Below, one piece after another: positions 33,333 to 47,495 of a stretch of DNA of 64,000 nucleotides. Position 1 is the stretch's first letter; the number at the start of each line of letters is the position of its first letter. The DNA lies in IMG/VR virus record IMGVR_UViG_3300046318_000165, positions 1 through 64,000 of that record; one strand, written 5' to 3'. Position numbers and translations under genes: made by a program. A model generated the notes under the pieces. That model saw only the letters and a list, made by a program, of their open reading frames with translations, ran no database searches and was not told the origin of the DNA. This DNA is from a virus.

Positions 33333-33357
33333 CTATTCTAGCATTACCCTCCGACAA
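33333..33357 (-). promoter_or_regulatory. promoter with degenerate operator
   Basis: Minus strand ATTTGTCGGAGGGT then TAGAAT, a divergent copy of the ATGTCGGTGGTA element. Confidence 0.5.
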
Positions 33358-33366
33358 ATACAACCC

Positions 33367-33750
33367 CTAGAACAAAGTATTTATCCAACGGTAGTCGTCT
33401 ATATCTTCTGGGACCGAATCAACATGCGGTAGTGAATCAAGAAGAGCTTTTACCCTATCAGGAATAGTCTTAGCAATGTTACGGAATGAGTCCAGGGTTA
33501 TAAAGAAATCATCTCCCCATTCCTTTTCAGGAAAGTCTGGTGCAAGCATCCTAGTCTCTGCTAGGGTTAGAGTAAAAGATTCAAGATAGGACCTTGTTGA
33601 TACCCATTCTCCGTCTACCCTATACACTGAAGGCTGGATAGTAAAGACATCTGCCCATTCATTCTCACCAGTCTCTTCATTAGTGCCTAGGTCCCTATAG
33701 AAAACGTTGAGGTCATACTCTTTTTCAATCTGATCGGTTTTAGTTGTCAT
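33367..33750 (-). CDS. hypothetical protein, 127 aa
   Basis: Start at ATG 33750 (GGAGAG upstream, overlapping the upstream stop region), not the longer in-frame start at 33783. Mixed alpha/beta, acidic. Last gene of the operon starting at 35156. Confidence 0.62.
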   Translation of the reverse strand: MTTKTDQIEKEYDLNVFYRDLGTNEETGENEWADVFTIQPSVYRVDGEWVSTRSYLESFTLTLAETRMLAPDFPEKEWGDDFFITLDSFRNIAKTIPDRVKALLDSLPHVDSVPEDIDDYRWINTLF

Positions 33751-33925
33751 ACCACTTCTCTCCTTCGTGTTCTTCACATTCACAACAGTTTACGCAATAC
33801 CCCTCATCATAGGGGCAAGCAAATGTATCCATAATCCATTCGCCCTCATGGGTATACTCTTTACCACAATCAAGACAAATAATATTATTTAGTATGTCAG
33901 CCAACAATCTTTGCGTCCTCTCCAT
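33740..33925 (-). CDS. zinc-finger protein, 61 aa
   Basis: Cys-rich: CLDCGKEYTHEG and CPYDEGYCVNCCECEEHEG. The ATG start at 33925 overlaps the upstream gene; a TTG nearer the upstream stop is an alternative. Probably binds zinc. Confidence 0.58.
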   Translation of the reverse strand: MERTQRLLADILNNIICLDCGKEYTHEGEWIMDTFACPYDEGYCVNCCECEEHEGEKWYDN

Positions 33926-34325
33926 AAAATGCTTTTAGGTCTTCTACAGTGTCAATGGGGATATGGATATAGCCCTCACGCTCTTCACACTCATTACAGT
34001 ATACAGGGTTGTCCCAGTCAAAGTCAAGAGTTTCTAGGCAATCACATTGACGCTCTGCCCAAGTAGGGACTTCAATGTCTTCTTCCCAAGGAACATTGGT
34101 AATATAGTAATGAATACGATTGACATAGTGATAACCAGAAACAATGTAACTTCCCTCATCACCGTCTACTTCAGTCCAAATGTTATGCTCATCCTGTAGT
34201 TTGACATACTCCTTTTCGTCACCGTATGTTTCGTAGGGTAGTTCAAGACCATTACTTTGATTCCTAAGATAATTAGGCATAGGCTGAAACTTCTCAACCC
34301 AAGCGTCATAAGTATAAATAGTCAT
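33897..34325 (-). CDS. hypothetical protein with CxxC pair, 142 aa
   Basis: Aromatic/acidic protein (MTIYTYDAWVEKFQP...) with CDCLE and CNECEE in the C-terminal third. Translationally coupled to both neighbours. Confidence 0.62.
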   Translation of the reverse strand: MTIYTYDAWVEKFQPMPNYLRNQSNGLELPYETYGDEKEYVKLQDEHNIWTEVDGDEGSYIVSGYHYVNRIHYYITNVPWEEDIEVPTWAERQCDCLETLDFDWDNPVYCNECEEREGYIHIPIDTVEDLKAFYGEDAKIVG

Positions 34326-34489
34326 TAGTTATTTTCCAATCCTGCTACACCATAGGGGTCAATGTGTTCTTGTAACTTATTATAAATAGCGTTGATAAAG
34401 ATGTCATTATCTCTATAAGTTATTTCGGCAAGGTAGCCATTCAAAACTTCTAACTCAATTTCTGTTAGTTCAATAGTATAAGTATTCAT
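34325..34489 (-). CDS. small acidic protein, 54 aa
   Basis: TAATG overlaps at both ends. MNTYTIELTEIELEVLNGYL..., helical. Function unknown. Confidence 0.6.
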   Translation of the reverse strand: MNTYTIELTEIELEVLNGYLAEITYRDNDIFINAIYNKLQEHIDPYGVAGLENN

Positions 34490-34632
34490 TATCCCTCGCT
34501 AACTTCAACATAACAATCACTAATGATACTATCGGCAATATCTTCTACATCATAGTCCTCACCAAAATCGGCATAGAACTCAATGTAGTGACCAGTTGGT
34601 GAATGAACAATAGTTATCTTCTTTTCCATCAT
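34489..34632 (-). CDS. small acidic protein, 47 aa
   Basis: Starts with two Met codons behind AGGAGT; TAATG overlap downstream. Predicted beta then helix (KKITIVHSPTGHYIEFYADFG). Function unknown. Confidence 0.58.
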   Translation of the reverse strand: MMEKKITIVHSPTGHYIEFYADFGEDYDVEDIADSIISDCYVEVSEG

Positions 34633-34637
34633 TACTC

Positions 34638-35156
34638 CTAAAAGTGGAAATCAACAGGGACAAGATACCAGTCTACACCCTCAGTGGGTAGTTTGTCAAG
34701 CATATGCTTAGTATTGGTAGAAGAATGTTCAGCGTCAAAATACTTTGAATTGAAATCCCAGTTACCCTGTAGCATATCAATTGCTTTACTCAGGGGGTAT
34801 AGGTCAAAAGAATAATCAATATTTCCAGTATATATATCTAACTTATCTTTGATAGAATCAAAATCAATACGACTAACATAATTCTTGAACTCATTTAGTC
34901 TAGACTCAATACACGAATCAATTTTCGCAGCAAATATTTCAGGGTCTTTAGCATAAGAGATAATCATATTAGAAGAAGAACTATAAGGGTCTTGCTCTGG
35001 GTTCCAACGACCGCCACCGATAACAAACCAATCATACCAAGATGAACCTGGGTTTAGTTCGTTATTTAGAAAACTCTCAACATACTCCATTGCTTCCTGC
35101 TCTGGGTCGTCTAGTCCGTCTTCTACCTTTATAGCAATCCATTGTAAAGTGTGCAT
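34638..35156 (-). CDS. hypothetical protein, 172 aa
   Basis: Start at ATG 35156 (RBS AAAGGAAA); the longer in-frame ORF to 35201 would translate the operator itself (MSVVG...). First gene of a six-gene operon. Contains SSWYDWFVIGGGRWNPEQDP, reminiscent of phage proteins of unknown function with a WxxGGRW motif. Confidence 0.65.
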   Translation of the reverse strand: MHTLQWIAIKVEDGLDDPEQEAMEYVESFLNNELNPGSSWYDWFVIGGGRWNPEQDPYSSSSNMIISYAKDPEIFAAKIDSCIESRLNEFKNYVSRIDFDSIKDKLDIYTGNIDYSFDLYPLSKAIDMLQGNWDFNSKYFDAEHSSTNTKHMLDKLPTEGVDWYLVPVDFHF

Positions 35157-35178
35157 TTGATTTCCTTTCGATGTTTCA

Positions 35179-35202
35179 AGTATACTGCCTACCACCGACA
35201 TT
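35179..35202 (-). promoter_or_regulatory. promoter with ATGTCGGTGGTA operator
   Basis: Minus strand: AATGTCGGTGGTA (35202-35190), then TATACT (35184-35179). Leader of about 20 nt with RBS AAAGGAA before the ATG at 35156. Confidence 0.75.
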
Positions 35203-35283
35203 CGTAAAACCTGGGAAAAAGCTGATCTATCGTAATTCTTTATTTGTGACTAATTATATTATGTAAGATAGGTCGGGCTTTCC

Positions 35284-35448
35284 CTACTCCTCCATTCTTT
35301 TCAAACTTGCTTTCAAAATCCCTAGCACGATTCTTGACGGTATCAAAGGCAAATCCTCATTCTTCAAAAACCCATCAATCATTCCATCAACTAGACTAAT
35401 AGCATTGTCATAGCCCATAGTGTAGGACTTCAATTCATCATTGGTCAT
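35284..35448 (-). CDS. hypothetical protein, 54 aa
   Basis: Start at ATG 35448, which overlaps the upstream TGA (ATGA). Helical; contains YTMGYDNAISLVDGMIDGFL. Last of a ten-gene micro-operon from 36603. Confidence 0.58.
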   Translation of the reverse strand: MTNDELKSYTMGYDNAISLVDGMIDGFLKNEDLPLIPSRIVLGILKASLKRMEE

Positions 35449-35555
35449 TTCTTTGCTCCCAAGCAACCCATACAGAAAAACTTTAGTAATGCGTCAGCAG
35501 GGTTAGTGCTGGTAGTCTCACATTTGTCACACTTGTAAATAGTTTCTTTATTCAT
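35445..35555 (-). CDS. zinc-ribbon micro-protein, 36 aa
   Basis: CDKC and CMGC pairs in 36 residues; chain of overlapping starts and stops. Function unknown. Confidence 0.55.
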   Translation of the reverse strand: MNKETIYKCDKCETTSTNPADALLKFFCMGCLGAKK

Positions 35556-35715
35556 TATCTTCCACCTCAAAATCCCATTGTGCGTTAGTTTCAAAATCTT
35601 CAAAGTCCTCAGCAATAAAGTCGTTTATCAACTCCAGAGCCTTTTCTCTACTCTCTGCCTCAACAGGGACTTCATAGTATTTCATTAGTTTTGCTTGAAC
35701 AAGATACTTATTCAT
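35548..35715 (-). CDS. small acidic protein, 55 aa
   Basis: MNKYLVQAKLMKYYEVPVEAESREKALELINDFI... resembles the 35829 gene product (MSKYFITTTVEYYFEVEADSEAEAEE): both are strand-strand-helix micro-proteins, probably paralogues of a ferredoxin-like half fold. Confidence 0.6.
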   Translation of the reverse strand: MNKYLVQAKLMKYYEVPVEAESREKALELINDFIAEDFEDFETNAQWDFEVEDNE

Positions 35716-35836
35716 CTTCTAGTTCCATTCCTGCTACTTCATACTCTTCCCAGAGATTTACGATTACTTCATTATCAATCTTTTCCAACTCACCCATCAG
35801 TGACCAGAACAGGGTTTGCCAGTTAGTATCATTCAT
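35708..35836 (-). CDS. small acidic protein, 42 aa
   Basis: Helical, MNDTNWQTLFWSLMGELEKIDNE...; coupled to neighbours by 8-nt overlaps. Confidence 0.52.
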   Translation of the reverse strand: MNDTNWQTLFWSLMGELEKIDNEVIVNLWEEYEVAGMELEDE

Positions 35837-35996
35837 CTTCTTCATCTTCCTCTAGGGCTTCAACCTCAATAGAATCAACTTCAGCAGTGTATGGATAGTT
35901 TTCATAGAGCCAGCCCATTTCCTCTGCTTCGGCTTCGCTGTCTGCCTCAACTTCAAAATAGTATTCAACAGTGGTAGTAATAAAATACTTACTCAT
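35829..35996 (-). CDS. small very acidic protein, 55 aa
   Basis: Beta hairpin then acidic tail (EALEEDEEDE). A DNA-mimic role is conceivable for such acidity but is speculation. Probable paralogue of 35548. Confidence 0.58.
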   Translation of the reverse strand: MSKYFITTTVEYYFEVEADSEAEAEEMGWLYENYPYTAEVDSIEVEALEEDEEDE

Positions 35997-36096
35997 TGAC
36001 CATAACCTTTCTTAGTTCATCATCACTTAGTCTATTTATTGTATCAAGACCCTCCGACATTATCAGGTCCAAAAGCCTACGGTATTCTTCAATCAT
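35989..36096 (-). CDS. micro-protein, 35 aa
   Basis: MIEEYRRLLDLIMSEGLDTI..., two amphipathic helices. Coupled on both sides. Confidence 0.5.
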   Translation of the reverse strand: MIEEYRRLLDLIMSEGLDTINRLSDDELRKVMVNE

Positions 36097-36098
36097 TA

Positions 36099-36248
36099 CT
36101 AACCGTGCTTTCTATAATAAGCATCGCAGGAAGACTTCTTGTGACCAATCTTTTTGGCGGAAGACTTCCAAACCCTTCCACATTCACGACAAGCATAAAT
36201 GTCATACTCTTCACCCTTGTGCTTACGCACCTCAACATTTCGTTCCAT
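36099..36248 (-). CDS. basic zinc-binding protein, 49 aa
   Basis: YACRECGRVW plus a later SSCDAYYRKHG: C2 plus C/H pattern, Lys/Arg-rich. Possibly nucleic-acid binding. Confidence 0.58.
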   Translation of the reverse strand: MERNVEVRKHKGEEYDIYACRECGRVWKSSAKKIGHKKSSCDAYYRKHG

Positions 36249-36463
36249 TAGTCCTCCTCTGAGTAGTAAAGTTCTAGTGGCACACCAATCATTCCTGCTA
36301 CTGATTGATAAGCAGAAATAAGACCACTAAGATAATCGTGGAAACCATCCAAATCATTTTCATCATAACCTTTCAACTCTTCTTGATAGCCAGTGATTCT
36401 ATCAACCAAGGCGGTAGCAAGAGATGTCATTGATACATAATCAGCATTAGGGTCAAGATTCAT
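36248..36463 (-). CDS. hypothetical acidic protein, 71 aa
   Basis: MNLDPNADYVSMTSLATALVDRITGYQEEL..., helical. TAATG-type overlaps at both ends. Confidence 0.58.
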   Translation of the reverse strand: MNLDPNADYVSMTSLATALVDRITGYQEELKGYDENDLDGFHDYLSGLISAYQSVAGMIGVPLELYYSEED

Positions 36464-36603
36464 TAGTTAGACTCTCCAAAGTATTCTATCCATAGGTCAG
36501 TATCCATAATGCCCTCACCATAAACCTCTTCAAGAGATTCTAGAGCATACTTGACACCATCAGTAAACGCTTCACCAATGGCTTCTTCATAAGTCTTTGA
36601 CAT
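36463..36603 (-). CDS. small acidic protein, 46 aa
   Basis: First gene of the ten-gene micro-operon, behind RBS GAAAGGAAAG and the operator promoter at 36628-36652. Function unknown. Confidence 0.58.
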   Translation of the reverse strand: MSKTYEEAIGEAFTDGVKYALESLEEVYGEGIMDTDLWIEYFGESN

Positions 36604-36627
36604 TGCTTTCCTTTCGTTGATGTATTT

Positions 36628-36652
36628 AGTTTACACCCTACCACCGACATTT
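36628..36652 (-). promoter_or_regulatory. promoter with ATGTCGGTGGTA operator
   Basis: Minus strand TTGTAA (-35), AATGTCGGTGGTA inside the spacer, TAAACT (-10). Confidence 0.72.
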
Positions 36653-36785
36653 ACAAGGAAAACCTGGGAAAAAATAGATCTATCATAATAGTTGTAAGTA
36701 GTTTAAATATACTATTTTGCTACAGCTGCCCGACCTGCCCCTGCCCCATATTCCGTTATTGGAATACAGGGCAAGGACTAATGGC

Positions 36786-37808
36786 TTACGCCATTGCCAC
36801 TTGCTGAACAATCTTTAGCAGACGGTTCTTCTCAGCGTTTACCATTGGGTCAAAGCCTGAAGCCGAAGCCAAGATAGACTCGTTGCTTCCGCCTCGTGAG
36901 TTACGATACCAGTCCAAACGCTCAGTTAGACCATTCAACGCACCCCAAGCAGTGCCAGCAATCATGCCATTCTGCTGTCCATTGTAAATGCTGTGAATCA
37001 AGTCAATCTTGCCGTCATGCTTTTTGAATGAACCCTTAGCGTCTTTTTCTGGGGCAGGATAAGCAAGGTTGATGATTTCCTCAAACTGCTTTTGAGTAAT
37101 AGTCTTTTCAATCATAGCCTTTGCCATAAGGTCAAACTCATCCATGTAAGCATTAGCCAATCCAAGAGCCTCACGAGCAACCGAAATCTTGCCCTCAGCA
37201 GTCTGAGTGTGGCGAATCTTGAAAGACTGCTTCGGTGCTTTGCCCTTACCCTTTAGAGCAGACAGAGCCAAGTTTAGGGTATTGGCACAGACAACACGAA
37301 CAGGGGTAATGCTTGCCTGAATAGCAACAGAACCGTCATGGCTAGTATTGATTAGCAAATAAGTCTTTACCTTATCAGACACGCCATTAGGGTCAAGGAT
37401 AGTTTCACGCTCTAGTGCTAGGCTACCAAATACTTGTCTACCACCCTTGATAGAGCCAGCAGTTTCCCAACGACCGCCGCCGTCTAGGATGTTGTCACCA
37501 AAGGCGAACAAGTCCTCATTTTGTAGAACCTTGTAACGCTCACCAACAACGCCTAGGACATCATTCTGGGTAGCGTCAAAAGGATTAGTGCGAGTAACAA
37601 AAGAATAAGTCTTGTCAGAAGCAAAAGTTTCTGGAATGGCAACATCTTCCAAGCGAACATTCCACTTGTCAAGGTGTGCTAACTCTAGCATTTTAGCGGT
37701 AGTTACTTCCTCAGTGAATACAGTGCCAAGACCATGCCAAGCAGGTTCACGCAAAGAAGCAAAAGTTGCTTCGCCAGTAGTTTGGTTGATTTCTAGTTCG
37801 TGAGCCAT
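36786..37808 (-). CDS. DUF932-family phage/plasmid-like protein
   Basis: 340 aa from ATG 37808; the longer frame to 37871 would cross the operator. MAHELEINQTTGEATFASLREPAWHGLG and the later RVVCANTLNLAL...SFKIRHT match the DUF932 (TIGR03299-like) family found in phages and plasmids. Function of the family is not established. It is the largest gene of the leftward region and stands alone behind its promoter. Confidence 0.82.
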   Translation of the reverse strand: MAHELEINQTTGEATFASLREPAWHGLGTVFTEEVTTAKMLELAHLDKWNVRLEDVAIPETFASDKTYSFVTRTNPFDATQNDVLGVVGERYKVLQNEDLFAFGDNILDGGGRWETAGSIKGGRQVFGSLALERETILDPNGVSDKVKTYLLINTSHDGSVAIQASITPVRVVCANTLNLALSALKGKGKAPKQSFKIRHTQTAEGKISVAREALGLANAYMDEFDLMAKAMIEKTITQKQFEEIINLAYPAPEKDAKGSFKKHDGKIDLIHSIYNGQQNGMIAGTAWGALNGLTERLDWYRNSRGGSNESILASASGFDPMVNAEKNRLLKIVQQVAMA

Positions 37809-37848
37809 GATACCCAACTTTCTTATTAGTGATTTATTTGATAAGATA

Positions 37849-37878
37849 AGTATACAGTCTACCACCGACATTTGTCAA
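37849..37878 (-). promoter_or_regulatory. promoter with operator and consensus -35
   Basis: Minus strand TTGACA (37878-37873), AATGTCGGTGGTA filling the 18-nt spacer, TATACT (37854-37849). The clearest copy, showing that the repeated element is a spacer-embedded operator rather than the -35 box. Confidence 0.8.
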
Positions 37879-37944
37879 GTTATTTAGTCTAGAATCTGGA
37901 GAATTTTTGACTAATCGTAAAGAGATCCCCTAGAAAGCTCGCAG

Positions 37945-37975
37945 ACCGCCCGACCCCTGAAAGGGAGCCTTTTCA
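37945..37975 (-). terminator. GC-rich hairpin with GGTCGGGC
   Basis: CCCT-TTC-AGGG stem followed by GTCGGGCGG, between the stop at 38024 and the next operator promoter. Lacks a T tract. Confidence 0.45.
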
Positions 37976-38023
37976 CGTCATGCTCAGGACGTATGCAGAC
38001 TTGCTGCATGTTTTCATAGCCCC

Positions 38024-38518
38024 CTATGAAACTTCAGTAACAGAATAGATTTCCTCAACCCAACCATCTTGGATATATTCGTAGCCACTAACCGAAATAT
38101 CAAGGTCACTCTCAAGTTCACTGGACATATCATCAATGGTCTTTCCAAACGGAATAGTAACATTAGTACGAATAATAATACTGAAATCAACAATAGCCTC
38201 AGTATTCAAATCAATGTCAAGGTTGTTAGCAATAGTAACGATAGTGTCATTATCAGTATCAGCAAACTCAGCAGTCTCAACAAGAACATTCTTTACTCGC
38301 TCAATGTAGTCAGTATAGCGTCTGTTAGCATTGCTAACCAACTCTGACTTTGCGGAAAGTTCTACTCGCTTGACTTGTAGTTCATCGTTCAATGACTCAA
38401 TGGTTAGTTCAAGTTCAGCAATCTTATTCTTGAACTGCTGTAGGACAGGATGCTGGCTCTCTGCCAGAGCCTGATTGATAACATCGTTGTTTGGTCTAGT
38501 AAATACTACTTCATCCAT
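38024..38518 (-). CDS. coiled-coil protein, 164 aa
   Basis: Start at ATG 38518. Long coiled coil (QFKNKIAELELTIESLNDELQVKRVEL...), then a beta-rich C-terminus. Single gene behind operator promoter 38547-38570. Confidence 0.65.
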   Translation of the reverse strand: MDEVVFTRPNNDVINQALAESQHPVLQQFKNKIAELELTIESLNDELQVKRVELSAKSELVSNANRRYTDYIERVKNVLVETAEFADTDNDTIVTIANNLDIDLNTEAIVDFSIIIRTNVTIPFGKTIDDMSSELESDLDISVSGYEYIQDGWVEEIYSVTEVS

Positions 38519-38546
38519 TTGGGGCTTCTTTCTCTTGATTAGTTCT

Positions 38547-38570
38547 ATTATAAATGGGACCACCGACATT
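38547..38570 (-). promoter_or_regulatory. promoter with ATGTCGGTGGT operator
   Basis: Minus strand AAATGTCGGTGGT then TATAAT (38552-38547). Confidence 0.7.
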
Positions 38571-38719
38571 TAGAATCCGAAGATAGAATCCAAGTCGTGA
38601 GTATGGATAGATTTAGTTGTATCGGTTTTTCCACATTTGGGGCAGGGTGGTGAAACTTCTCCTGGTTTTAGGGCAAACACAATCTTAGCGTGTTCTAATA
38701 GTCTTTGTTCCATAGTCAT
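38570..38719 (-). CDS. zinc-ribbon protein, 49 aa
   Basis: CPKCGKTDTTKSIHTHD, one CxxC plus histidines. The stop codon overlaps the operator of the next unit. Coupled to the 65-aa gene upstream. Confidence 0.55.
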   Translation of the reverse strand: MTMEQRLLEHAKIVFALKPGEVSPPCPKCGKTDTTKSIHTHDLDSIFGF

Positions 38720-38916
38720 TAGCCGTCCCATTCGGAAGTGTCTTGTCCGTTCAATACGGCTAGGGCATAGGGATACTTGCTGTTATCTCCAAGGGAATCA
38801 AGAATGTCAATCTGTTCCTCAGTAAAACTACTAAAGTTAGTAATGATAATGTCACTACCACCATAAGAACCGTCTTCGGTAATCCATAGAACGCCACTTA
38901 GTTGGTCATACGCCAT
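38719..38916 (-). CDS. hypothetical protein, 65 aa
   Basis: RBS AAAGAGGAAA. Acidic, MAYDQLSGVLWITEDGSYGG...; no family recognised. Confidence 0.62.
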   Translation of the reverse strand: MAYDQLSGVLWITEDGSYGGSDIIITNFSSFTEEQIDILDSLGDNSKYPYALAVLNGQDTSEWDG

Positions 38917-38942
38917 TAGTTTCCTCTTTCTTTGTTATTACT

Positions 38943-38966
38943 ATTGTAGGGCATACCACCGACATT
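38943..38966 (-). promoter_or_regulatory. promoter with ATGTCGGTGGTA operator
   Basis: Minus strand AATGTCGGTGGTA then TACAAT (38948-38943). Confidence 0.68.
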
Positions 38967-39041
38967 CTGGAAAAAGTTTATGAGTTTTATAATGTCTATC
39001 GTAAACGGATCCTGGGGCAGGTGTAGTGCCCGACCCCAGCC

Positions 39042-39076
39042 AGAAGAAAACCCCCATCTCGTCAGACAGGGGTTCT
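39042..39076 (-). terminator. intrinsic terminator
   Basis: Minus strand AACCCC...GGGGGTT stem followed by TTTTCTTC. It ends the 39175-39615 unit; a TAGGC/GCCTA hairpin lies before it at 39157-39170. Confidence 0.75.
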
Positions 39077-39645: not shown

Positions 39646-39670
39646 ATTATACAGGGGGCTACCGACATTT
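39646..39670 (-). promoter_or_regulatory. promoter with operator
   Basis: Minus strand AAATGTCGGTAG then TATAAT (39651-39646). Confidence 0.7.
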
Positions 39671-39934: not shown

Positions 39935-40041
39935 ATTATAGCATTAGGGTCAGACATTTGTCAAGTCCATTTGGAAACTTTTTTATTTTTTATTTTCTGC
40001 TCTTTTGCTATGTTTCTATTATAGAGCATACCTCCGACATT
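39935..40041 (-). promoter_or_regulatory. tandem promoters, one with operator
   Basis: Proximal: TTGACA, ATGTCTGACC (degenerate operator), TATAAT (39940-39935). Distal: AAATGTCGGAGGT then TATAAT (40023-40018). The only clear tandem pair. Confidence 0.6.
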
Positions 40042-40881: not shown

Positions 40882-40905
40882 ATTTTACACCCTACCACCG
40901 ACATT
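40882..40905 (-). promoter_or_regulatory. promoter with ATGTCGGTGGTA operator
   Basis: Minus strand AATGTCGGTGGTA then TAAAAT (40887-40882). Confidence 0.68.
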
Positions 40906-41330: not shown

Positions 41331-41355
41331 ATTATAGACTGACCCACCGACATTT
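41331..41355 (-). promoter_or_regulatory. promoter with ATGTCGGTGGG operator
   Basis: Minus strand AAATGTCGGTGGG then TATAAT (41336-41331). Confidence 0.7.
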
Positions 41356-41581: not shown

Positions 41582-41607
41582 TATTCTGTCCTTTGTTTGA
41601 TAATACT

Positions 41608-41632
41608 ATTATAAACTGAACCACCGACATTT
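41608..41632 (-). promoter_or_regulatory. promoter with ATGTCGGTGGT operator
   Basis: Minus strand AAATGTCGGTGGT then TATAAT (41613-41608). Confidence 0.7.
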
Positions 41633-41762
41633 AGAGAAATTCAAAAGGGTCACGGTCTTGGAATATGTCTTCAAAATCAGAAAAGGAATATAGCTCTGGG
41701 TTAGCGTTAAATTCTTCTAGGGCTTGTTTGATTTCTTCTGCTTGTTCATCGATTTTATTCAT
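41631..41762 (-). CDS. small acidic protein, 43 aa
   Basis: MNKIDEQAEEIKQALEEFNANPELY..., helical. The ATG is about 6 nt after the TATAAT of promoter 41769-41792, so it is leaderless; the stop touches the next operator. Confidence 0.52.
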   Translation of the reverse strand: MNKIDEQAEEIKQALEEFNANPELYSFSDFEDIFQDRDPFEFL

Positions 41763-41768
41763 ATTTAT

Positions 41769-41792
41769 ATTATAAGTGATACCACCGACATT
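41769..41792 (-). promoter_or_regulatory. leaderless promoter with ATGTCGGTGGTA operator
   Basis: Minus strand AAATGTCGGTGGTA then TATAAT (41774-41769), then ATG at 41762. Confidence 0.7.
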
Positions 41793-41869
41793 TAGGAATG
41801 GGGAAAGCTTTATCGTAACGTAAAGTTGGATCCTGGAGCAGCTAGGGGGGTCGGGCGATCGCCCTGCCC

Positions 41870-42013
41870 CTATCCCATAGCCATAAATAAACTAACTAAG
41901 AATGCTGAGATAGCGATTATCACAAAAACAAACGGTATACCAGACATTAGAGCAATCATTGCCAGAGTAAAAAGAATACCAACGCTAACAGCACGACCAA
42001 TAAAATCAATCAC
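41870..42013 (-). CDS. membrane protein, 47 aa
   Basis: GTG start overlapping the upstream TGA. Two hydrophobic segments (VGILFTLAMIALMSGIPFV and FVIIAISAFLVSLFMAM). Function unknown. Confidence 0.55.
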   Translation of the reverse strand: MIDFIGRAVSVGILFTLAMIALMSGIPFVFVIIAISAFLVSLFMAMG

Positions 42014-42123
42014 TTATCCAACTCTCTTTTTATCTTTTCCATAGCACCAACGATAAGACCAATGCCCATTACTGCCATAGCCAACGGTATTAGAATAACT
42101 ATACCAATAAGAATAATCTCCAT
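42010..42123 (-). CDS. membrane protein, 37 aa
   Basis: Single hydrophobic helix (IILIGIVILIPLAMAVMGIG) and a basic tail. Coupled to both neighbours. Confidence 0.55.
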   Translation of the reverse strand: MEIILIGIVILIPLAMAVMGIGLIVGAMEKIKRELDK

Positions 42124-42347
42124 TAGAGAATACAACCCCAATCTCCAGCATCACGAAATGCTCGCTCAATGTCCATCTCAGCCATCTCGCCCTTGTAGTA
42201 TTTTGTCTTGCCGTTTAGTTTGACTTTGTAGTAGCCAAAAATGTTTAGGGCAGACCATACCGTTCCAATGTCGCTAGAGTAAGACTCACTCCACTCGCTA
42301 ACATCAGAAACCTTTGTTTGTCTTGTAACATAACCTAAGTGGCTCAT
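42123..42347 (-). CDS. hypothetical protein, 74 aa
   Basis: MSHLGYVTRQTKVSDVSEWSESYSS..., contains LNIFGYYKVKLNGKTKYYKG (beta). No family recognised. Confidence 0.6.
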   Translation of the reverse strand: MSHLGYVTRQTKVSDVSEWSESYSSDIGTVWSALNIFGYYKVKLNGKTKYYKGEMAEMDIERAFRDAGDWGCIL

Positions 42348-42460
42348 AGACTTTCCTCCTCATACTGGCACTGGCAGGGAATAACACGAATAGAGTTATC
42401 CATTCTCGCCTCAACGAAAGCATAACCCTTACACACAGAACAAAAATACTCTTGAATCAT
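42344..42460 (-). CDS. zinc-binding micro-protein, 38 aa
   Basis: CSVCKGYAFVEARMDN...CQCQ: two cysteine pairs. Starts behind operator promoter near 42484-42508. Confidence 0.55.
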   Translation of the reverse strand: MIQEYFCSVCKGYAFVEARMDNSIRVIPCQCQYEEESL

Positions 42461-42621
42461 TAGTTGCCTTTCTTGTTACTTACACTATACACTAGACCAC
42501 CGACAATTACAGTTTCAAAACTATACAAGTCTTCATCGTGGCTTGGGCAGATAGCAAAATAGCCTTTAGAAACATTCTCATAGACTACTGGCGTTTCGCA
42601 ACGCTTACATACTCTTGTCAT
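42460..42621 (-). CDS. zinc-ribbon protein whose C-terminus encodes the operator
   Basis: 53 aa with CKRCETPVV and AICPSH. The frame stays open through the promoter/operator at 42484-42508 and stops by TAATG overlap with the next gene, so the operator DNA is translated as VIVGGLVYS. Unusual because the other operators lie outside genes. Confidence 0.5.
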   Translation of the reverse strand: MTRVCKRCETPVVYENVSKGYFAICPSHDEDLYSFETVIVGGLVYSVSNKKGN

Positions 42622-42791
42622 TAGTAACTTTCTTGAATGGCTTTACGGTTATTGGTTGCTCTTGTTCCCTTGCGGTTATCAGGGATAACAACGGTATGCT
42701 TTGCTTTTAGCATAGTCTGGAATAACGCTTGGGCTTCTGCCTTGCGTCTTGCTTCGTTTGCCTTGTGTAGTGGCTTAGTTCTTTTCTTCAT
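42621..42791 (-). CDS. basic protein, 56 aa
   Basis: ATG 42791 directly behind TATAAT (42803-42798) of an operator promoter: leaderless. Lys/Arg-rich (KKRTKPLHKANEARRKAEAQ), so likely nucleic-acid binding. Confidence 0.6.
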   Translation of the reverse strand: MKKRTKPLHKANEARRKAEAQALFQTMLKAKHTVVIPDNRKGTRATNNRKAIQESY

Positions 42792-42797
42792 AGTTTT

Positions 42798-42821
42798 ATT
42801 ATACACCACCCTACCGACATT
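42798..42821 (-). promoter_or_regulatory. leaderless promoter with operator
   Basis: Minus strand AATGTCGGTAG then TATAAT (42803-42798), 6 nt, ATG. Confidence 0.7.
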
Positions 42822-42894
42822 CTGGGAAATGGGGATCTTTCACTTAATCGTAAATTGATCTTGGATCAGCGAAGCTGCCCGCCCCCCGAAGGGT

Positions 42895-43011
42895 CTAGAA
42901 CGGTGGTTTCAGTTCTTCGACCCAACGGCGGTATTGGTCTAGCATATATGCCTGATATAGAATGTATCCAGCCAAAGCAACATAACCAATAGCAACAATA
43001 AACCAAATCAT
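42895..43011 (-). CDS. membrane micro-protein ending in PPF, 38 aa
   Basis: ATG 43011 behind AAAGGAACAG. Hydrophobic helix (MIWFIVAIGYVALAGYILY) and the end RRWVEELKPPF. A similar membrane protein ending KPPF is encoded at 45415. Confidence 0.52.
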   Translation of the reverse strand: MIWFIVAIGYVALAGYILYQAYMLDQYRRWVEELKPPF

Positions 43012-43028
43012 TTTCTGTTCCTTTTCTT

Positions 43029-43088
43029 CTACTGTCTTACTAAAATAATAATAACCACTGCCATAGCAAGAATAAAAATCCAAGTCAT
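43029..43088 (-). CDS. 19-aa membrane micro-protein
   Basis: MTWIFILAMAVVIIILVRQ. Same length and pattern as ORFs at 45519 and 46903; each lies next to another small membrane gene. Confidence 0.42.
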   Translation of the reverse strand: MTWIFILAMAVVIIILVRQ

Positions 43089-43089
43089 T

Positions 43090-43278
43090 TTATTCACCCC
43101 AGCAAGCGTTATCAAAACGGTCTGAGTCAAAACGCTCATTATCGTTTTCAAACATTTCAGCAAAGTCTGCCACTAGCAAACCAAAAATGTCTTCGCCCTC
43201 TTGACCAAGTGAAACGATACTTTCACGAACATCAGAGAGAATCTTAGCAGTCTGAACATAGTCCTTGCGTGTCATCAT
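43090..43278 (-). CDS. small acidic protein, 62 aa
   Basis: MMTRKDYVQTAKILSDVRESIVS..., with the phage-typical FAEMFENDNERFDSDRF segment. Function unknown. Confidence 0.62.
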   Translation of the reverse strand: MMTRKDYVQTAKILSDVRESIVSLGQEGEDIFGLLVADFAEMFENDNERFDSDRFDNACWGE

Positions 43279-43436
43279 TAGTTGTCCACCTCTTGTTTTG
43301 AAAGATAGGTTAGTAGAGTGTTTAGGTCTTCGTCAGTTGCTCTTGAGGACAAGAAGCCCCAAGCCCAAGCATAGGCTTCACCGCTAGAGTAACCCCTTTC
43401 CTTTAGGGTTTCGATTATTTCGTTTTGCTTTCGCAT
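43278..43436 (-). CDS. small protein, 52 aa
   Basis: MRKQNEIIETLKERGYSSGEAYAWAWGFL..., helical. First gene behind operator promoter 43461-43485; four-gene unit. Confidence 0.58.
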   Translation of the reverse strand: MRKQNEIIETLKERGYSSGEAYAWAWGFLSSRATDEDLNTLLTYLSKQEVDN

Positions 43437-43460
43437 AGTTTTCCTTTCGTTGATAGTTCT

Positions 43461-43485
43461 ATTATAGGGGATACCACCGACATTT
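43461..43485 (-). promoter_or_regulatory. promoter with ATGTCGGTGGTA operator
   Basis: Minus strand AAATGTCGGTGGTA then TATAAT (43466-43461). Confidence 0.72.
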
Positions 43486-43486
43486 A

Positions 43487-43660
43487 CTAAAGCTTAGTAG
43501 AACCCTTAGCCTTAGCCATTGAGATTAGCCATTCAAGTTCATTCTGAAACTGTGGAGTGATGTCATAGTCGCAACGCTCTGCAATAGCGATGTATTCGCT
43601 AATGGTCTTTTCGATGACGGTAAGGGGCTTAGTAGCGATGTCGATAACTGAGAAGTTCAT
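43487..43660 (-). CDS. small helical protein, 57 aa
   Basis: MNFSVIDIATKPLTVIEKTISEYIAIAERCDYDITPQFQNELEWLI... Paralogue of the 45945 product (VALAIQSDYNLTPKFERELMLL). Function unknown. Confidence 0.6.
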   Translation of the reverse strand: MNFSVIDIATKPLTVIEKTISEYIAIAERCDYDITPQFQNELEWLISMAKAKGSTKL

Positions 43661-43803
43661 TAGTATTACCTTTCTTTGTAACTACTATTATTTTAGCAGA
43701 CACCACCGACATTTTGGGGAAAAGATCAGGACATTTTTAATACGTTACGTAAATGTTATATGGATCACGATCGCAGCCCGACCCCTGGTTGGGGCGTGTC
43801 ACC

Positions 43804-43977
43804 CTACCAGTCCTCACCACCATAGTATCCATAGTCCTCGTCAGTGCCAAAGCCAGCACTGGCTAGAGCGTCACCATCCATCCAATCCCCATCATCCTCA
43901 AAAGAGTCCTGACGGTTGAAATCGGCACAGCCGTCCCAGTCGTGTCCGCAAGCTGGGTAGTCTTCGCATCGCTTCAT
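43804..43977 (-). CDS. very acidic protein, 57 aa
   Basis: Start at ATG 43977; the frame beyond would cross the operator. C and H near the start (RCEDYPACGHDWDGCADF), then Asp/Glu-rich with Gly/Tyr. Acidity like DNA-mimic inhibitors, unproven. Confidence 0.58.
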   Translation of the reverse strand: MKRCEDYPACGHDWDGCADFNRQDSFEDDGDWMDGDALASAGFGTDEDYGYYGGEDW

Positions 43978-44025
43978 AGCGTGTCCTTTCGTTGATAAAA
44001 TAAGTATACATTGAGCCACAGACAT

Positions 44026-44313
44026 TTACTGTTTGCGTTGCTCGTCATAGGTATAAATGATGTGGCAGTTGGCACAGAGAATACGGCACTTAGCCATTTC
44101 AGCAAGAATGAGAGCTTGAGAGTATGAAGCCATGTGGCTAGGGTGAACCAACTTGCCATTCTTGTTGCGGAACTTGGTTTCAGGGTCAATGTGGTCAAAC
44201 TGAAGTGCCAAAGGTGAAGCGTTGTAGCCACAAATCTCGCAACCCCTGTCAGTCTTATACTTGTTCATTAGGATACGGTTTGCGGTATAGCGGTCAATCT
44301 TTTTGATAGCCAT
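44026..44313 (-). CDS. HNH endonuclease
   Basis: 95 aa. CEICGYNASPLALQFDHIDPETK and CRILCANCHIIYT form the zinc-ribbon HNH pattern (CxxC, DH, CxxCH). A small free-standing nuclease, either homing-type or acting in packaging/defence. Behind its own operator promoter near 44345-44362. Confidence 0.78.
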   Translation of the reverse strand: MAIKKIDRYTANRILMNKYKTDRGCEICGYNASPLALQFDHIDPETKFRNKNGKLVHPSHMASYSQALILAEMAKCRILCANCHIIYTYDEQRKQ

Positions 44314-44429
44314 TAGTTTGCCTTTCGTTGATAAGACAAGTATACATTACACCTATGACATTTACAAATTTGGGGAAAACTGGAGATCTATTTTAATATC
44401 GTAAATGAATTTGACAAAAGCTTGATCCT

Positions 44430-44458
44430 GTGCCCGACCACGCTGTCGGGCGTGTCGC
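44430..44458 (-). terminator. GC-rich hairpin with GGTCGGGC
   Basis: CGCCCGA paired with TCGGGC(A) directly after the stop at 44461; same form as the copies at 45367, 46243 and 46856. Confidence 0.55.
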
Positions 44459-44460
44459 AA

Positions 44461-44577
44461 CTACTTTCTAAATATTTTTGCGTCAGGGTATTCTAGACGA
44501 AACATAGCCAAATCATAGGCGTGAATAGCCGAAACAACTTTAGAACCATTTAGAGTGTATTCCATTAGAGTGAACAT
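44461..44577 (-). CDS. micro-protein, 38 aa
   Basis: MFTLMEYTLNGSKVVSAIHAYD..., preceded by AAAGGAACAC. Function unknown. Confidence 0.52.
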   Translation of the reverse strand: MFTLMEYTLNGSKVVSAIHAYDLAMFRLEYPDAKIFRK

Positions 44578-44688
44578 AGTGTTCCTTTCTTTAGGGGACT
44601 TATTTGCTTAGGCTCACCATTTCTGGATTATTTGCTAAGGCTCATTCCCATTTGTTTACTTATTTAGTTTATCAGTGACTACCGACAT

Positions 44689-44856
44689 TTACGGCAGAGG
44701 GATTGCCCTGTGTCGCAGAATGGTTTCTGCTTGTTCTGGCGTTATGTAGGCAGACAAGATACCATACATCTTTGCGTATCGCATAGCCAGAGATTCCTCT
44801 GGATTCTCGATTTCCAAAGACTTCTCAACAAGTTGAATCATTTCGCTTACTAGCAT
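44689..44856 (-). CDS. small helical protein, 55 aa
   Basis: MLVSEMIQLVEKSLEIENPEESLAMRYAKMYGIL..., with operator promoter 44880-44910 upstream. The stop codon lies in the operator of the next unit. Confidence 0.56.
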   Translation of the reverse strand: MLVSEMIQLVEKSLEIENPEESLAMRYAKMYGILSAYITPEQAETILRHRAIPLP

Positions 44857-44907
44857 TTATTTCTCATTTCTTTTTAGTAGTTTTAGTTTATCAGTGACTA
44901 CCGACAT

Positions 44908-45081
44908 TTATCGGTTAGGGCAACTGACAAAGTGGGCTTCAAAGTTGAACATTAGGGCAGACTTGTTTTTACCAACAATAACCTTTCCACACAGACACTC
45001 AAAGTCGTAGTGTGTATCTACATAGTCTGCCATAACCCAAGCGTAGTTTGAAGCGGTGATTAGTTGTTCGTTGAAGTTCAT
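44908..45081 (-). CDS. zinc-binding protein, 57 aa
   Basis: CLCGKVIVGK plus later HFVSCPNR. Behind operator promoter near 45105-45136. Function unknown. Confidence 0.56.
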   Translation of the reverse strand: MNFNEQLITASNYAWVMADYVDTHYDFECLCGKVIVGKNKSALMFNFEAHFVSCPNR

Positions 45082-45171
45082 TTATTTCTCATTTCTTTTT
45101 ATCTATTTATACTCTATACCATACCACCGACATTTACGATGATTTGGAGCCAACAAGTGGCTAAAAAACGG

Positions 45172-45228
45172 TTACATTTTGGTTACGCTTTCCGCACTCT
45201 TTGTTGGCTTTATCTCTGTTTTCTTCAT
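45172..45228 (-). CDS. possible leaderless micro-protein, 18 aa
   Basis: ATG a few nt after TATAAA of the operator promoter at 45235-45260. It also covers the 11-bp repeat array, so it may be chance. Confidence 0.25.
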   Translation of the reverse strand: MKKTEIKPTKSAESVTKM

Positions 45229-45343
45229 ATTTATACTGTATCAGACCCCACCGACATTTACAGAGCTTTTAGATAAATAAATGGCTAAGAAATGGCTAAA
45301 AAATGATCAAGTTTTGGGAACATTCTTAAGCTTACGTAAATAG

Positions 45344-45364
45344 TTATCCACAGAGTTATCCACA
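45344..45364 (+). promoter_or_regulatory. pair of DnaA boxes
   Basis: Two perfect TTATCCACA boxes at 45344-45352 and 45356-45364, 12 bp apart, next to a GC-rich hairpin. Same orientation as the boxes at 32138-32339. Confidence 0.55.
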
Positions 45365-45366
45365 GA

Positions 45367-45406
45367 CCGCCCGACCACGCTTTCGGGCGTGTCGCCCTCC
45401 AGGTGG
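45367..45406 (-). repeat. 40-nt hairpin repeat, copy 1
   Basis: CGCCCGA...TCGGGCG stem then GACACGCCC and CCACCTGGAGGG. Near-identical copies at 46243-46282 and 46856-46893, each just downstream of an operon end. Acts as a terminator or processing hairpin (inference). Confidence 0.6.
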
Positions 45407-45414
45407 GGATCCGT

Positions 45415-45507
45415 TTAGAACGGTGGCTTATTGGCAAGGTAGTGACCAAAAAGCTTTGCATTGAAAGCCATTGATACTGCTAGGGTTGCGATTAGGATTG
45501 ATACCAT
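45415..45507 (-). CDS. membrane micro-protein ending KPPF, 30 aa
   Basis: MVSILIATLAVSMAFNAKLFGHYLANKPPF: one helix and the PPF end shared with 42895. Confidence 0.48.
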   Translation of the reverse strand: MVSILIATLAVSMAFNAKLFGHYLANKPPF

Positions 45508-45518
45508 TTTTCTGTCCT

Positions 45519-45578
45519 TTACTGATTGAGTAGAATAACGATTACTGCTAAGACTATGATAGCAAATACCCCAGACAT
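45519..45578 (-). CDS. 19-aa membrane micro-protein
   Basis: MSGVFAIIVLAVIVILLNQ, paired with the KPPF gene as at 43029/42895. Confidence 0.42.
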   Translation of the reverse strand: MSGVFAIIVLAVIVILLNQ

Positions 45579-45579
45579 T

Positions 45580-45717
45580 TTAGAGTTTGCCCCCATTTGC
45601 CTTGATAAACTTTACAAGGTATAGGCTACGGTCTAAGTCTGCCATTGGCACATAGTCTGCTTCTTTGGCTTCACGCACTAGGCGGTTTAGTTCAAGTTTT
45701 GCTTGCTTTACGGTCAT
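45580..45717 (-). CDS. small basic protein, 45 aa
   Basis: MTVKQAKLELNRLVREAKEADYVPMADLDRSLY..., first gene of the unit behind promoter near 45741-45770 (degenerate operator AGCGACATT on plus). Confidence 0.56.
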   Translation of the reverse strand: MTVKQAKLELNRLVREAKEADYVPMADLDRSLYLVKFIKANGGKL

Positions 45718-45740
45718 TAGATTTTCCTTTGTTTGGTTAT

Positions 45741-45887
45741 TTATAGACTAGCACTACCCAGCGACATTTTCCTTTTTTCTAATGCCAGTTCTAGTCTGGC
45801 GATTCGTTCCTGCTGTCGCTTGTCATAGGCTTCTAGTCGCTTTGCCATAGCGATTTCTAGGCTCTTGATGTATTCTGCTTTAGTCAT
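45741..45887 (-). CDS. coiled-coil protein reading through the operator, 48 aa
   Basis: MTKAEYIKSLEIAMAKRLEAYDKRQQERIARLELALEKRK then MSLGSASL, the last part encoded by the downstream operator/promoter. RBS AAAGAAAT region. Like 42460 it overlaps regulatory DNA. Confidence 0.5.
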   Translation of the reverse strand: MTKAEYIKSLEIAMAKRLEAYDKRQQERIARLELALEKRKMSLGSASL

Positions 45888-45944
45888 TTTATTTCTCATT
45901 TCTTTTGTTACTTATACTTTATCAGTAGCCACCGACAAAGTGGA

Positions 45945-46094
45945 TTAGACTCTGCCACCAAGTGACTTGACGGTCTGAGTCAAGAGCATTAGTTCACGCT
46001 CAAACTTTGGGGTAAGGTTGTAGTCTGACTGGATAGCCAGAGCAACCATACGGTCATACTCTGCCTGTAGGTCTGATAGGGACTTGATGTTCAT
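45945..46094 (-). CDS. small helical protein, 49 aa
   Basis: Paralogue of 43487 (shared Y(D/N)(I/L)TP(Q/K)F pattern). RBS AAAGGTAAT. Behind operator promoter near 46120-46149. Confidence 0.58.
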   Translation of the reverse strand: MNIKSLSDLQAEYDRMVALAIQSDYNLTPKFERELMLLTQTVKSLGGRV

Positions 46095-46242
46095 TGGGAT
46101 TACCTTTCTTTCTAACTACTATTACTCTAACACATACCACCGACATTTACGCCCCTTTTAGGTAACAAAATGGTTACAATATGGCTAGAATCTGGACAAT
46201 CTTAAAAAGCTACGTAAAAGCTTTTCGAACAAATTTTCGAAA

Positions 46243-46282
46243 CCGCCCGACCACGCTTTCGGGCGTGTCGCCCTCCAGGTGG
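46243..46282 (-). repeat. 40-nt hairpin repeat, copy 2
   Basis: Same 40-nt sequence as 45367-45406, directly after the stop of the gene at 46291. Confidence 0.6.
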
Positions 46283-46290
46283 CGGTAGGT

Positions 46291-46413
46291 CTAGAACAGA
46301 CCCTCAGCCTTTGCTACAAGGTATAGAGCCAATGCCCCAAGGTTCAAAAAGATTACTGCTGTAAATACGATAGCAACTACTGCATCCTGTAAGTCAATCT
46401 GCTTGTTTTCCAT
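46291..46413 (-). CDS. membrane protein, 40 aa
   Basis: MENKQIDLQDAVVAIVFTAVIF...: one membrane helix. It lies downstream of tRNA-like element 1 in the same leftward transcript. Confidence 0.52.
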   Translation of the reverse strand: MENKQIDLQDAVVAIVFTAVIFLNLGALALYLVAKAEGLF

Positions 46414-46436
46414 TTTTCATTCCTTTGTTTATTGAG

Positions 46437-46539
46437 TGAGCAGTGCTGGAATCGAACCAACTTGTATATAGATTCTCTTTATAAGTAAAGCTTTGGTGTA
46501 AGCAATCTGTCTATCCCCATACCATTTGGGTTACTGCCC
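46437..46539 (-). ncRNA. tRNA-like element 1 with 37-nt anticodon-position loop
   Basis: Read on the minus strand: acceptor GGGCAGT/ACTGCTC, D-arm CCCA-AATGGTA-TGGG, a 27-31 stem ATAGA/TCTAT and T-arm GTTGG-TTCGATT-CCAGC. The loop closed by ATAGA/TCTAT is 37 nt instead of 7. It contains GCTT/AAGC and TTTA/TAAA mini-hairpins. It starts 11 nt after the expected start of the operator promoter at 46555-46580. No clear anticodon. Confidence 0.6.
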
Positions 46540-46554
46540 TTATTGATTTGTAGT

Positions 46555-46580
46555 TTTAGTTTATCCTATGTCACCGACAT
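46555..46580 (-). promoter_or_regulatory. operator promoter driving tRNA-like element 1
   Basis: Minus strand AAATGTCGGTGA then TAAACT, directly upstream of the tRNA-like gene. Confidence 0.6.
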
Positions 46581-46632
46581 TTACACGTCTACTTGGTAAC
46601 TTTTTGATAACATTTTCTTTTTAGTTTTTTTG

Positions 46633-46734
46633 TGAGAAGTGTTGGAATCGAACCAACCTTTTCCAGAGCCTCTTTATAAGTAAAGCTTTGTTATAAGCAA
46701 TCTGTCTGTCCCCAAACCATTTGGGCTACTTCCC
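46633..46734 (-). ncRNA. tRNA-like element 2 with 37-nt anticodon-position loop
   Basis: Acceptor GGGAAGT/ACTTCTC, D-arm CCCA-AATGGTT-TGGG, stem CAGA/TCTG and T-arm GTTGG-TTCGATT-CCAAC. The 37-nt loop is nearly identical to that of element 1. Pair 28-42 changes from T-A to C-G between the copies, supporting the fold. It has its own operator promoter (46755-46775) and no gene between itself and the next promoter. Confidence 0.6.
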
Positions 46735-46754
46735 TTATTTATTTATATCTATAT

Positions 46755-46775
46755 ATTATCATTCATTACCGACAT
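46755..46775 (-). promoter_or_regulatory. operator promoter driving tRNA-like element 2
   Basis: Minus strand AAATGTCGGTAA then GATAAT (46760-46755), about 20 nt before the tRNA-like 5' end. Confidence 0.6.
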
Positions 46776-46855
46776 TTGTCAAGCTAAACACGCCAATTTA
46801 GGGAAATTTATTTGATCGTTATAAAGCTGTAACATTCGAATGTTTGTTCGAAAAT

Positions 46856-46893
46856 GCCCGACCCCGCTTTCGGGCGTGTCGCCCTCCAGGTGG
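46856..46893 (-). repeat. 40-nt hairpin repeat, copy 3
   Basis: GCCCGACCCCGC variant of the repeats at 45367 and 46243, after the stop at 46903. Confidence 0.6.
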
Positions 46894-46902
46894 CTGGGGT
46901 AG

Positions 46903-46962
46903 TTACTGACTCATTCCAAACATTACAATACCGATCAAAACTAAGATTAGTCCAATAGTCAT
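46903..46962 (-). CDS. 19-aa membrane micro-protein
   Basis: MTIGLILVLIGIVMFGMSQ, third member of the 19-aa series, 10 nt after the 52-aa gene upstream. Confidence 0.42.
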   Translation of the reverse strand: MTIGLILVLIGIVMFGMSQ

Positions 46963-46972
46963 TAGCTTATCC

Positions 46973-47131
46973 CTACTTTACCAAGGTAGCAGACGAAGCA
47001 CGAAATACAATACCCAACTTCTTTTGGGCAAAGGTGATAGCAGGATGTCCATACCAAGCAGACACAACTACCTTGTGAGTAACCCCACTGTAGTCGATTC
47101 CTGTTACTAGCCATTCTTTGTTCTTGTTCAT
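46973..47131 (-). CDS. small protein, 52 aa
   Basis: Start at ATG 47131 (AAAGGAAAT upstream), not the longer frame through the operator. MNKNKEWLVTGIDYSGVTHKVVV..., predicted beta-rich. Function unknown. Confidence 0.56.
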   Translation of the reverse strand: MNKNKEWLVTGIDYSGVTHKVVVSAWYGHPAITFAQKKLGIVFRASSATLVK

Positions 47132-47215
47132 TTCAATTTCCTTTTCTTTGATACTTCTATTATAGGCATAGCCTAAGACATTTGTCAAGTCTATTTGGTA
47201 ACGGTTTGATAACGG

Positions 47216-47443
47216 TTACATGATGGGAAATAGTTCATAGAATAGGTGAGCATGGTCACATTCACCGTCAAGGTTAGGCATACCATCGGAATCTAAGTAG
47301 CACTCAGAGTCACCACAAACTTTTGGGGTATAGGTTTCAAGTTCTTTTACTGTCATGGTAGTCATGCCAGAACAAGCGATACATACACACTTGTAGTCAC
47401 CGTTCTCTAGTTGGAATCCACAACTTACGCAATACTTGAACAT
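47216..47443 (-). CDS. cysteine-rich zinc protein, 75 aa
   Basis: CVSCGFQLENG, CVCIACSG and C/H residues further on; probably two zinc sites. Behind the last operator promoter (47470-47495). Confidence 0.62.
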   Translation of the reverse strand: MFKYCVSCGFQLENGDYKCVCIACSGMTTMTVKELETYTPKVCGDSECYLDSDGMPNLDGECDHAHLFYELFPIM

Positions 47444-47495
47444 TTCTTTTTCCTTTTCCTTGTTGATACAAGTCTATGTGATAGCACCGACAAAC

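Follow-up and report, generated by a model that had tools for sequence, protein, structure and literature searches.

About 30 leftward promoters in a 64,000-nucleotide stretch of viral DNA (IMG/VR record IMGVR_UViG_3300046318_000165, positions 1 to 64,000; hereafter the window) share one oriented element, TGTCGGTG, at a fixed distance upstream of the −10 box. We consider it probable that this is the −26 element of PafBC-type promoters and that the host's own PafBC reads it. The RecA-independent DNA-damage promoter of Actinobacteria (RecA-NDp) has the consensus tTGTCRgtg-8nt-TannnT (PMC5656591). Once bound to single-stranded DNA (ssDNA), the WYL heterodimer PafBC of the host replaces −35 recognition, a mode of activation termed sigma adaptation; cryo-electron microscopy places PafB on the −26 promoter motif and PafC against domain 4 of SigA, with ssDNA as the ligand that activates them (PMC11804915). 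The arrangement in the window, TGTCGGTG-N8-TATAAT, agrees with the RecA-NDp consensus in its letters and in its exact spacing, which makes host PafBC the likeliest regulator. Phage and RecA-NDp promoters share the TGTCRGTG core, its distance of exactly 8 nt from a TAnnnT −10 box, a location at about −28 to −21 and the usual absence of a −35 box. The phage differs in having about 30 copies within 14 kb, where they drive small phage genes.

A relaxed scan for the element plus a −10 box listed 41 rows, from which we selected 32 as credible. All 32 lie on the minus strand between 33,356 and 47,492 and combine a TGTCGGTG-type element with a TATAAT-like −10 box (Table 1). When AAATGTCGGTGGTA was searched with up to 3 mismatches, the window gave 33 matches against 4.7 ± 2.1 in shuffled sequences (largest 11; none of 100 shuffles reached 33), and from 35.1 to 46.8 kb all matches lie on the minus strand. 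The original prediction of some 30 leftward promoters sharing one oriented element is thus borne out, and a single oriented spacer element shared among them implies the common control of the leftward small-gene units that it also proposed. Most of the 32 sites contain TGTCGGTG itself, and the tTGTCRgtg core is recovered; the leading base is mostly A, where the consensus has a weak t, and the R position is G in the window sites.

The spacing between the element and the −10 box is strict. Across all 90,751 bases of the virus record, TGTCRGTG-N8-TA...T occurs 18 times on the minus strand and never on the plus strand, and among the remaining spacings between 3 and 15 nt none gives more than 2 occurrences. 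The shorter core TGTCGG in the same N8 register gives 26 minus-strand and 0 plus-strand matches. The −10 box begins 8 nt 3' of TGTCGGTG, or 5 nt past ...GGTGGTA; the distance had been called fixed, correctly, but the figure of about 10 nt given with it was loose. An alignment logo of the copies, with the −10 box set at −12 to −7, places the element at −28 to −21. It therefore sits inside the promoter spacer and is not itself the −35 box, as had been proposed from the promoter at 37849–37878, where a perfect TTGACA-N18-TATACT with the element in its spacer is present as described. All credible sites keep this one spacing to a −10 box, and we found no copies away from promoters.

Promoters called without use of the element (a −10 box, a Shine–Dalgarno (SD) sequence and an ATG) gave the same picture. 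At least 6 of the 8 element positions were matched in 15 of 30 such calls on the minus strand and in 0 of 28 on the plus strand, where no promoter with the element was found. An SD-like sequence and an ATG follow 27 of the 32 sites, mostly 28–38 nt from the start of the −10 box. At three of the other five (45,256, 42,819 and 41,790) an ATG lies a few nt past the −10 box, which suggests leaderless mRNAs. We also considered the element as translated sequence (AATG TCG GTG...) and rejected this, since reading frames vary among copies and the SD and ATG lie further down; the ATG inside the element is incidental.

Sigma adaptation predicts that −35 boxes should be scarce where the element is present, and they are. 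We scored a TTGACA-like box in de-duplicated promoters chosen by homology to the DUF932 protein encoded behind the type promoter. A −35 box was present in 13 of 115 element promoters (11%) and in 47 of 96 without the element (49%; odds ratio 0.13, p = 2e-9). Under sigma adaptation the −26 element would stand in for the −35 box. The window follows the same trend. Within it a perfect TTGACA is exceptional among the leftward promoters, being confined to those with −10 boxes at 37,854, 39,940, 47,164 and also 46,775. The GGTG half of the element is missing at two of these four (39,940 and 47,164), the half-element promoters at 39,956 and 47,180. Facing rightward, plain TTGACA-N17-TATAAT promoters stand at 21,983 and 28,336.

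The same promoter element occurs in hundreds of promoters of related viruses, across dozens of uncultured phage contigs. In IMG/VR, the window form at the right spacing was found in more than 118 stretches, the same letters reversed in 11 and the form with one added spacer base in 3; a scan with TTGTCAGTGG-N7-TATAAT, the form from the literature with one G added to the published consensus, was also saturated. The search of related phages covered 41 virus records picked by the motif, some of them near-copies of each other, and 37 of these had 4–24 relaxed sites, all on one strand, with a reversed-pattern control near 0. Because these records were chosen by the motif, we added a second set of 80 loci picked by DUF932 protein homology alone. 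This set gave 285 sense and 10 antisense sites, 0 control matches and a dominant spacing peak at 8 nt; 27 loci had at least 3 sites and 23 had none. The R position is A in 73% of the sites in this set and in 77% of putative host sites. In a pool of 1880 promoters called without the motif, which includes loci that had been selected by it, the element stood at the exact register in 609, versus 0–23 when the register was shifted by 1–6 nt.

Among cultured phages, relatives of the portal, GP88 and DUF932 proteins are mostly found in Streptomyces and Mycobacterium phages; these homologies and the presence of WhiB point to Actinomycetota. Megablast searches with the window region and with a relative gave no match among phage records. 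The Stanwilliamsviridae (Streptomyces phages such as Peebs, Wakanda and Annadreamy) resemble this phage in the portal protein (about 47–49% identical) and DUF932 (about 53%), but these three phages have no RecA-NDp sites, and the DUF932 region of Peebs has other promoters. Those of Peebs follow a different repeated style, GTAGACA...TAGACT.

On the host side, adjacent pairs of WYL genes are common in small-genome Actinomycetes (mostly 1.0–1.5 Mb, from the class of Spirillospora). One such pair matches PDB structures, PafB at about 2e-35 and PafC at about 5e-29. Among the WYL-pair loci inspected, a TatC-like gene adjoins two pairs and a tRNA-methyltransferase-like gene adjoins another, neighbors that we take to be the usual context of pafBC. 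In the same group, with genes recognised by sequence, the RecA-NDp pattern lies 5' of recA, beside the SOS-box-like palindrome TCGAACAGATGTTCG, and also 5' of a CarD-like gene. The pattern at recA, together with the presence of PafBC, marks the element as a damage promoter that belongs to the host itself in such lineages, so the simplest reader of the phage copies would be host PafBC. In bacterial and archaeal genomes totalling 257 Gb, the strict pattern was found in 8 stretches, approximately the number expected by chance. Two of the 8 (in Spirillospora and Actinomadura) precede a gene whose WYL domain was recognised by eye, and the other six look like chance matches. In both of these genomes, AAATGTCGGTGGTCGAACATATAAT lies directly 5' of this small WYL-domain gene, with a leaderless-like ATG 6 nt past the −10 box; it is a putative conserved chromosomal −26 promoter.

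The original prediction proposed control by a regulator encoded by the phage itself, with the WhiB-like protein at 12707 or the helix-turn-helix (HTH) protein at 47851 as candidates. If such a protein or another small DNA-binding protein read the element, its likeness to RecA-NDp promoters would be convergent, and we think this unlikely. WhiB-like proteins act on sigma-A, and 14 of 30 motif-bearing records have WhiB genes. However, WhiB7 reads AT-rich DNA 5' of the −35 box and not the spacer, and convergence would have to recreate both the 8-base core and the exact 8-nt spacing. WhiB is also a general marker of actinophages (PMC10202952). For the HTH at 47,851, only 7 of the 27 motif-bearing records have a homologue, counting the protein itself, so we rejected it as a universal regulator. 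Domain searches of motif-bearing records for other phage regulators were negative: a WYL domain was found in 0 of 30, a PafB-type HTH in 0 of 24 (with this profile, PafB of a cellular control genome scores 4e-42) and Sigma70_r2 in 0 of 27. Neither a phage-encoded PafBC or WYL regulator nor promoters for a phage sigma factor were retained as candidates.

A comparison had also been drawn with mycobacteriophage L5-type (cluster A) operators and stoperators, in which one phage repressor bound at many sites would silence the genes. The likeness is real in that a single asymmetric, oriented element is repeated many times within one phage genome. L5 stoperators also lie away from promoters, whereas the element here is a fixed part of the promoter, tied to the −10 box at one exact spacing and with no promoter-distal copies. 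The general lack of −35 boxes in element promoters likewise points to activation, not repression. We regard the stoperator reading as very improbable and rejected it on the fixed register, although phage repressors were not searched for exhaustively. There is slightly more room, but still little, for another sigma-adaptation activator of the host WYL class. SiwR also needs the −26 region, its conserved triplet there being GGA (PMC10693628), and nucleic-acid sensing by WYL domains is a further likeness of SiwR/DriD-type activators. In the phage element AA and G positions are conserved in addition, which would suit a reader other than PafBC; its letters, TGTCRGTG, differ from those of SiwR, and it precedes recA, a classic PafBC target, in the sampled small-genome Actinomycetes.

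Several observations weigh against recognition by host PafBC. The phage and host flavors of the element differ: AA and not T is favored before TGTC, an extra G follows GTG, the −10 box is a near-perfect, consensus-like TATAAT, and the R position is G in this window; binding of PafBC to these sites is predicted, and a related but different reader is possible. Of 148 Actinomycetes genomes sampled, 147 lack the strict phage form. The 11% of −26 promoters that also have a −35 box may need no activator. Many virus records are perhaps incomplete, so an absent regulator gene is weak evidence in any one record. Convincing sites are lacking in eight cultured actinophages, Patience having two weak ones, and for this reason we see the element as a habit of particular phage groups and not of actinophages generally. 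The small-genome Actinomycetes are candidate host lineages. The phage also carries a PstS-like phosphate-binding protein (20854–21894, plus strand), and its best full-length match in the sampled Actinomycetes is about 38% identical, which singles out no lineage.

Table 1. Promoters and genes of interest in the window.
Feature	Position	Strand	Basis
Type promoter: TTGACA (−35), AAATGTCGGTGGTA (−26 element), TATACT (−10); DUF932 gene next	37849..37878	−	TTGACA-N18-TATACT, element in spacer
TGTCGGTG + 8 nt + TAGACT	47471..47492	−	Relaxed scan
Variant: perfect TTGACA, half −26 element TGTCTTAG, TATAAT	47159..47188	−	Relaxed scan + motif-blind call
−26 promoter TGTCGGTA, TTGACA present; tRNA-like gene next	46753..46774	−	Relaxed scan
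−26 promoter TGTCGGTG; tRNA-like gene next	46558..46579	−	Relaxed scan
−26 promoter TGTCGGTG..TAGAGT	46124..46145	−	Relaxed scan
−26 promoter TGTCGGTG..TAAAGT	45916..45937	−	Relaxed scan
−26 promoter variant TGTCGCTG..TAGTCT	45745..45766	−	Relaxed scan
Weak −26 promoter TGTCTGGG..TATCAT	45556..45577	−	Relaxed scan
−26 promoter TGTCGGTG..TACAGT; leaderless-like ATG just downstream	45235..45256	−	Relaxed scan
−26 promoter TGTCGGTG..TAGAGT	45111..45132	−	Relaxed scan
−26 promoter TGTCGGTA..TAAACT	44885..44906	−	Relaxed scan
−26 promoter TGTCGGTA..TAAACT	44666..44687	−	Relaxed scan
Variant TGTCATAG..TATACT; drives HNH gene	44339..44360	−	Relaxed scan
Variant TGTCTGTG..TATACT	44003..44024	−	Relaxed scan
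−26 promoter TGTCGGTG..TAAAAT	43690..43711	−	Relaxed scan
−26 promoter TGTCGGTG..TATAAT	43461..43482	−	Relaxed scan
−26 promoter TGTCGGTA..TATAAT; leaderless-like ATG	42798..42819	−	Relaxed scan
−26 promoter TGTCGGTG..TATAGT	42484..42505	−	Relaxed scan
−26 promoter TGTCGGTG..TATAAT; leaderless-like ATG	41769..41790	−	Relaxed scan
−26 promoter TGTCGGTG..TATAAT	41608..41629	−	Relaxed scan
−26 promoter TGTCGGTG..TATAAT	41331..41352	−	Relaxed scan
−26 promoter TGTCGGTG..TAAAAT; drives GP88-family gene	40882..40903	−	Relaxed scan
−26 promoter TGTCGGAG..TATAAT	40018..40039	−	Relaxed scan
Variant: perfect TTGACA, half element TGTCTGAC, TATAAT	39935..39964	−	Relaxed scan + motif-blind call
−26 promoter TGTCGGTA..TATAAT	39646..39667	−	Relaxed scan
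−26 promoter TGTCGGTG..TACAAT	38943..38964	−	Relaxed scan
−26 promoter TGTCGGTG..TATAAT	38547..38568	−	Relaxed scan
−26 promoter TGTCGGTG..TAAACT	36628..36649	−	Relaxed scan
−26 promoter TGTCGGAG..TACAAT; within small open reading frame	36038..36059	−	Relaxed scan
−26 promoter TGTCGGTG..TATACT	35179..35200	−	Relaxed scan
−26 promoter TGTCGGAG..TAGAAT; site furthest downstream	33335..33356	−	Relaxed scan
Contrast: canonical TTGACA-N17-TATAAT, without −26 element	21960..21988	+	Motif-blind call
Contrast: canonical TTGACA-N17-TATAAT, without −26 element	28313..28341	+	Motif-blind call
DUF932 gene under type promoter; query for motif-free sampling of related loci	36786..37808	−	
WhiB-like protein; candidate regulator in the original prediction	12707..13000	+	
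61-aa HTH/HNH-associated protein; the other candidate regulator	47851..48036	−	

Other features accompany these promoters. TTACGA/TTACGT (and GTAAC...GTTAC) elements lie up to about 80 nt 5' of the −26 element at about 10 of the 32 leftward sites (for example 38,964, 40,039 and 43,711) and also in other sampled loci; they are possibly the site of a second regulator. Repeated, terminator-like stem-loops, GGAGGGCGACACGCCCGAAAGCG(T/G)GGTCGGGC, occur between leftward units and 5' of several −26 promoters, for example around 45370, 46270 and 46880. Two tandem tRNA-like genes (46633–46734 and about 46438–46539, minus strand) stand behind −26 promoters. Their acceptor and T arms are intact, and both copies have an insertion of about 34 nt in the anticodon loop, of which IMG/VR holds no exact copy. 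ARAGORN missed both genes, and Rfam scores one as a tRNA (33.8 bits). On the plus strand, late-looking rightward promoters at record positions 20809, 51022, 58731, 65403, 69927 and 80991 consist of a −10 box only with an AT-rich TATAATTAATATA-like extension, so that this phage apparently has a third class of promoter.

The leftward small proteins are mostly of unknown function, the recognisable ones being DUF932, GP88 and HNH proteins. A plausible course of events is that phage DNA entry, replication, breakdown of host DNA or defence exposes ssDNA, which would activate the constitutively present PafBC of the host. With PafB reading TGTCGGTG at −28 to −21 and PafC bound to domain 4 of the housekeeping sigma factor, host RNA polymerase would then start at about 30 promoters, mostly without a −35 box. 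The small-gene arsenal would come on as a whole, keeping pace with infection or damage, as a gated burst of small proteins. What we infer in this scheme is PafBC binding, induction by ssDNA or damage, the identity of the host and the timing. The data also allow that, with such strong TATAAT boxes, basal PafBC activity is enough, in which case the genes would simply be early.

We give roughly even chances to a broader proposal: that in a large group of actinobacterial phages the whole small-gene programme, probably early and concerned with host takeover and counter-defence, is wired to the host's ssDNA-sensing PafBC. These genes would fire when infection or a defence nuclease makes ssDNA, and the phage would carry a PafBC regulon denser than the host's. 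The promoter class is already known, but our searches of the open-access literature turned up no paper that connects PafBC or RecA-NDp promoters with the control of phage genes. If the proposal is true, the small-gene regions found in many uncultured actinophages would have a regulator, ssDNA as its trigger and a logic for their promoters, and M. smegmatis offers a means of testing what it predicts. The element itself offers a simple sequence tag by which to locate the small-gene arsenals of such phages and to link uncultured phages to PafBC-bearing hosts. The DNA-damage response would have been turned from a host defence into the virus's infection sensor.

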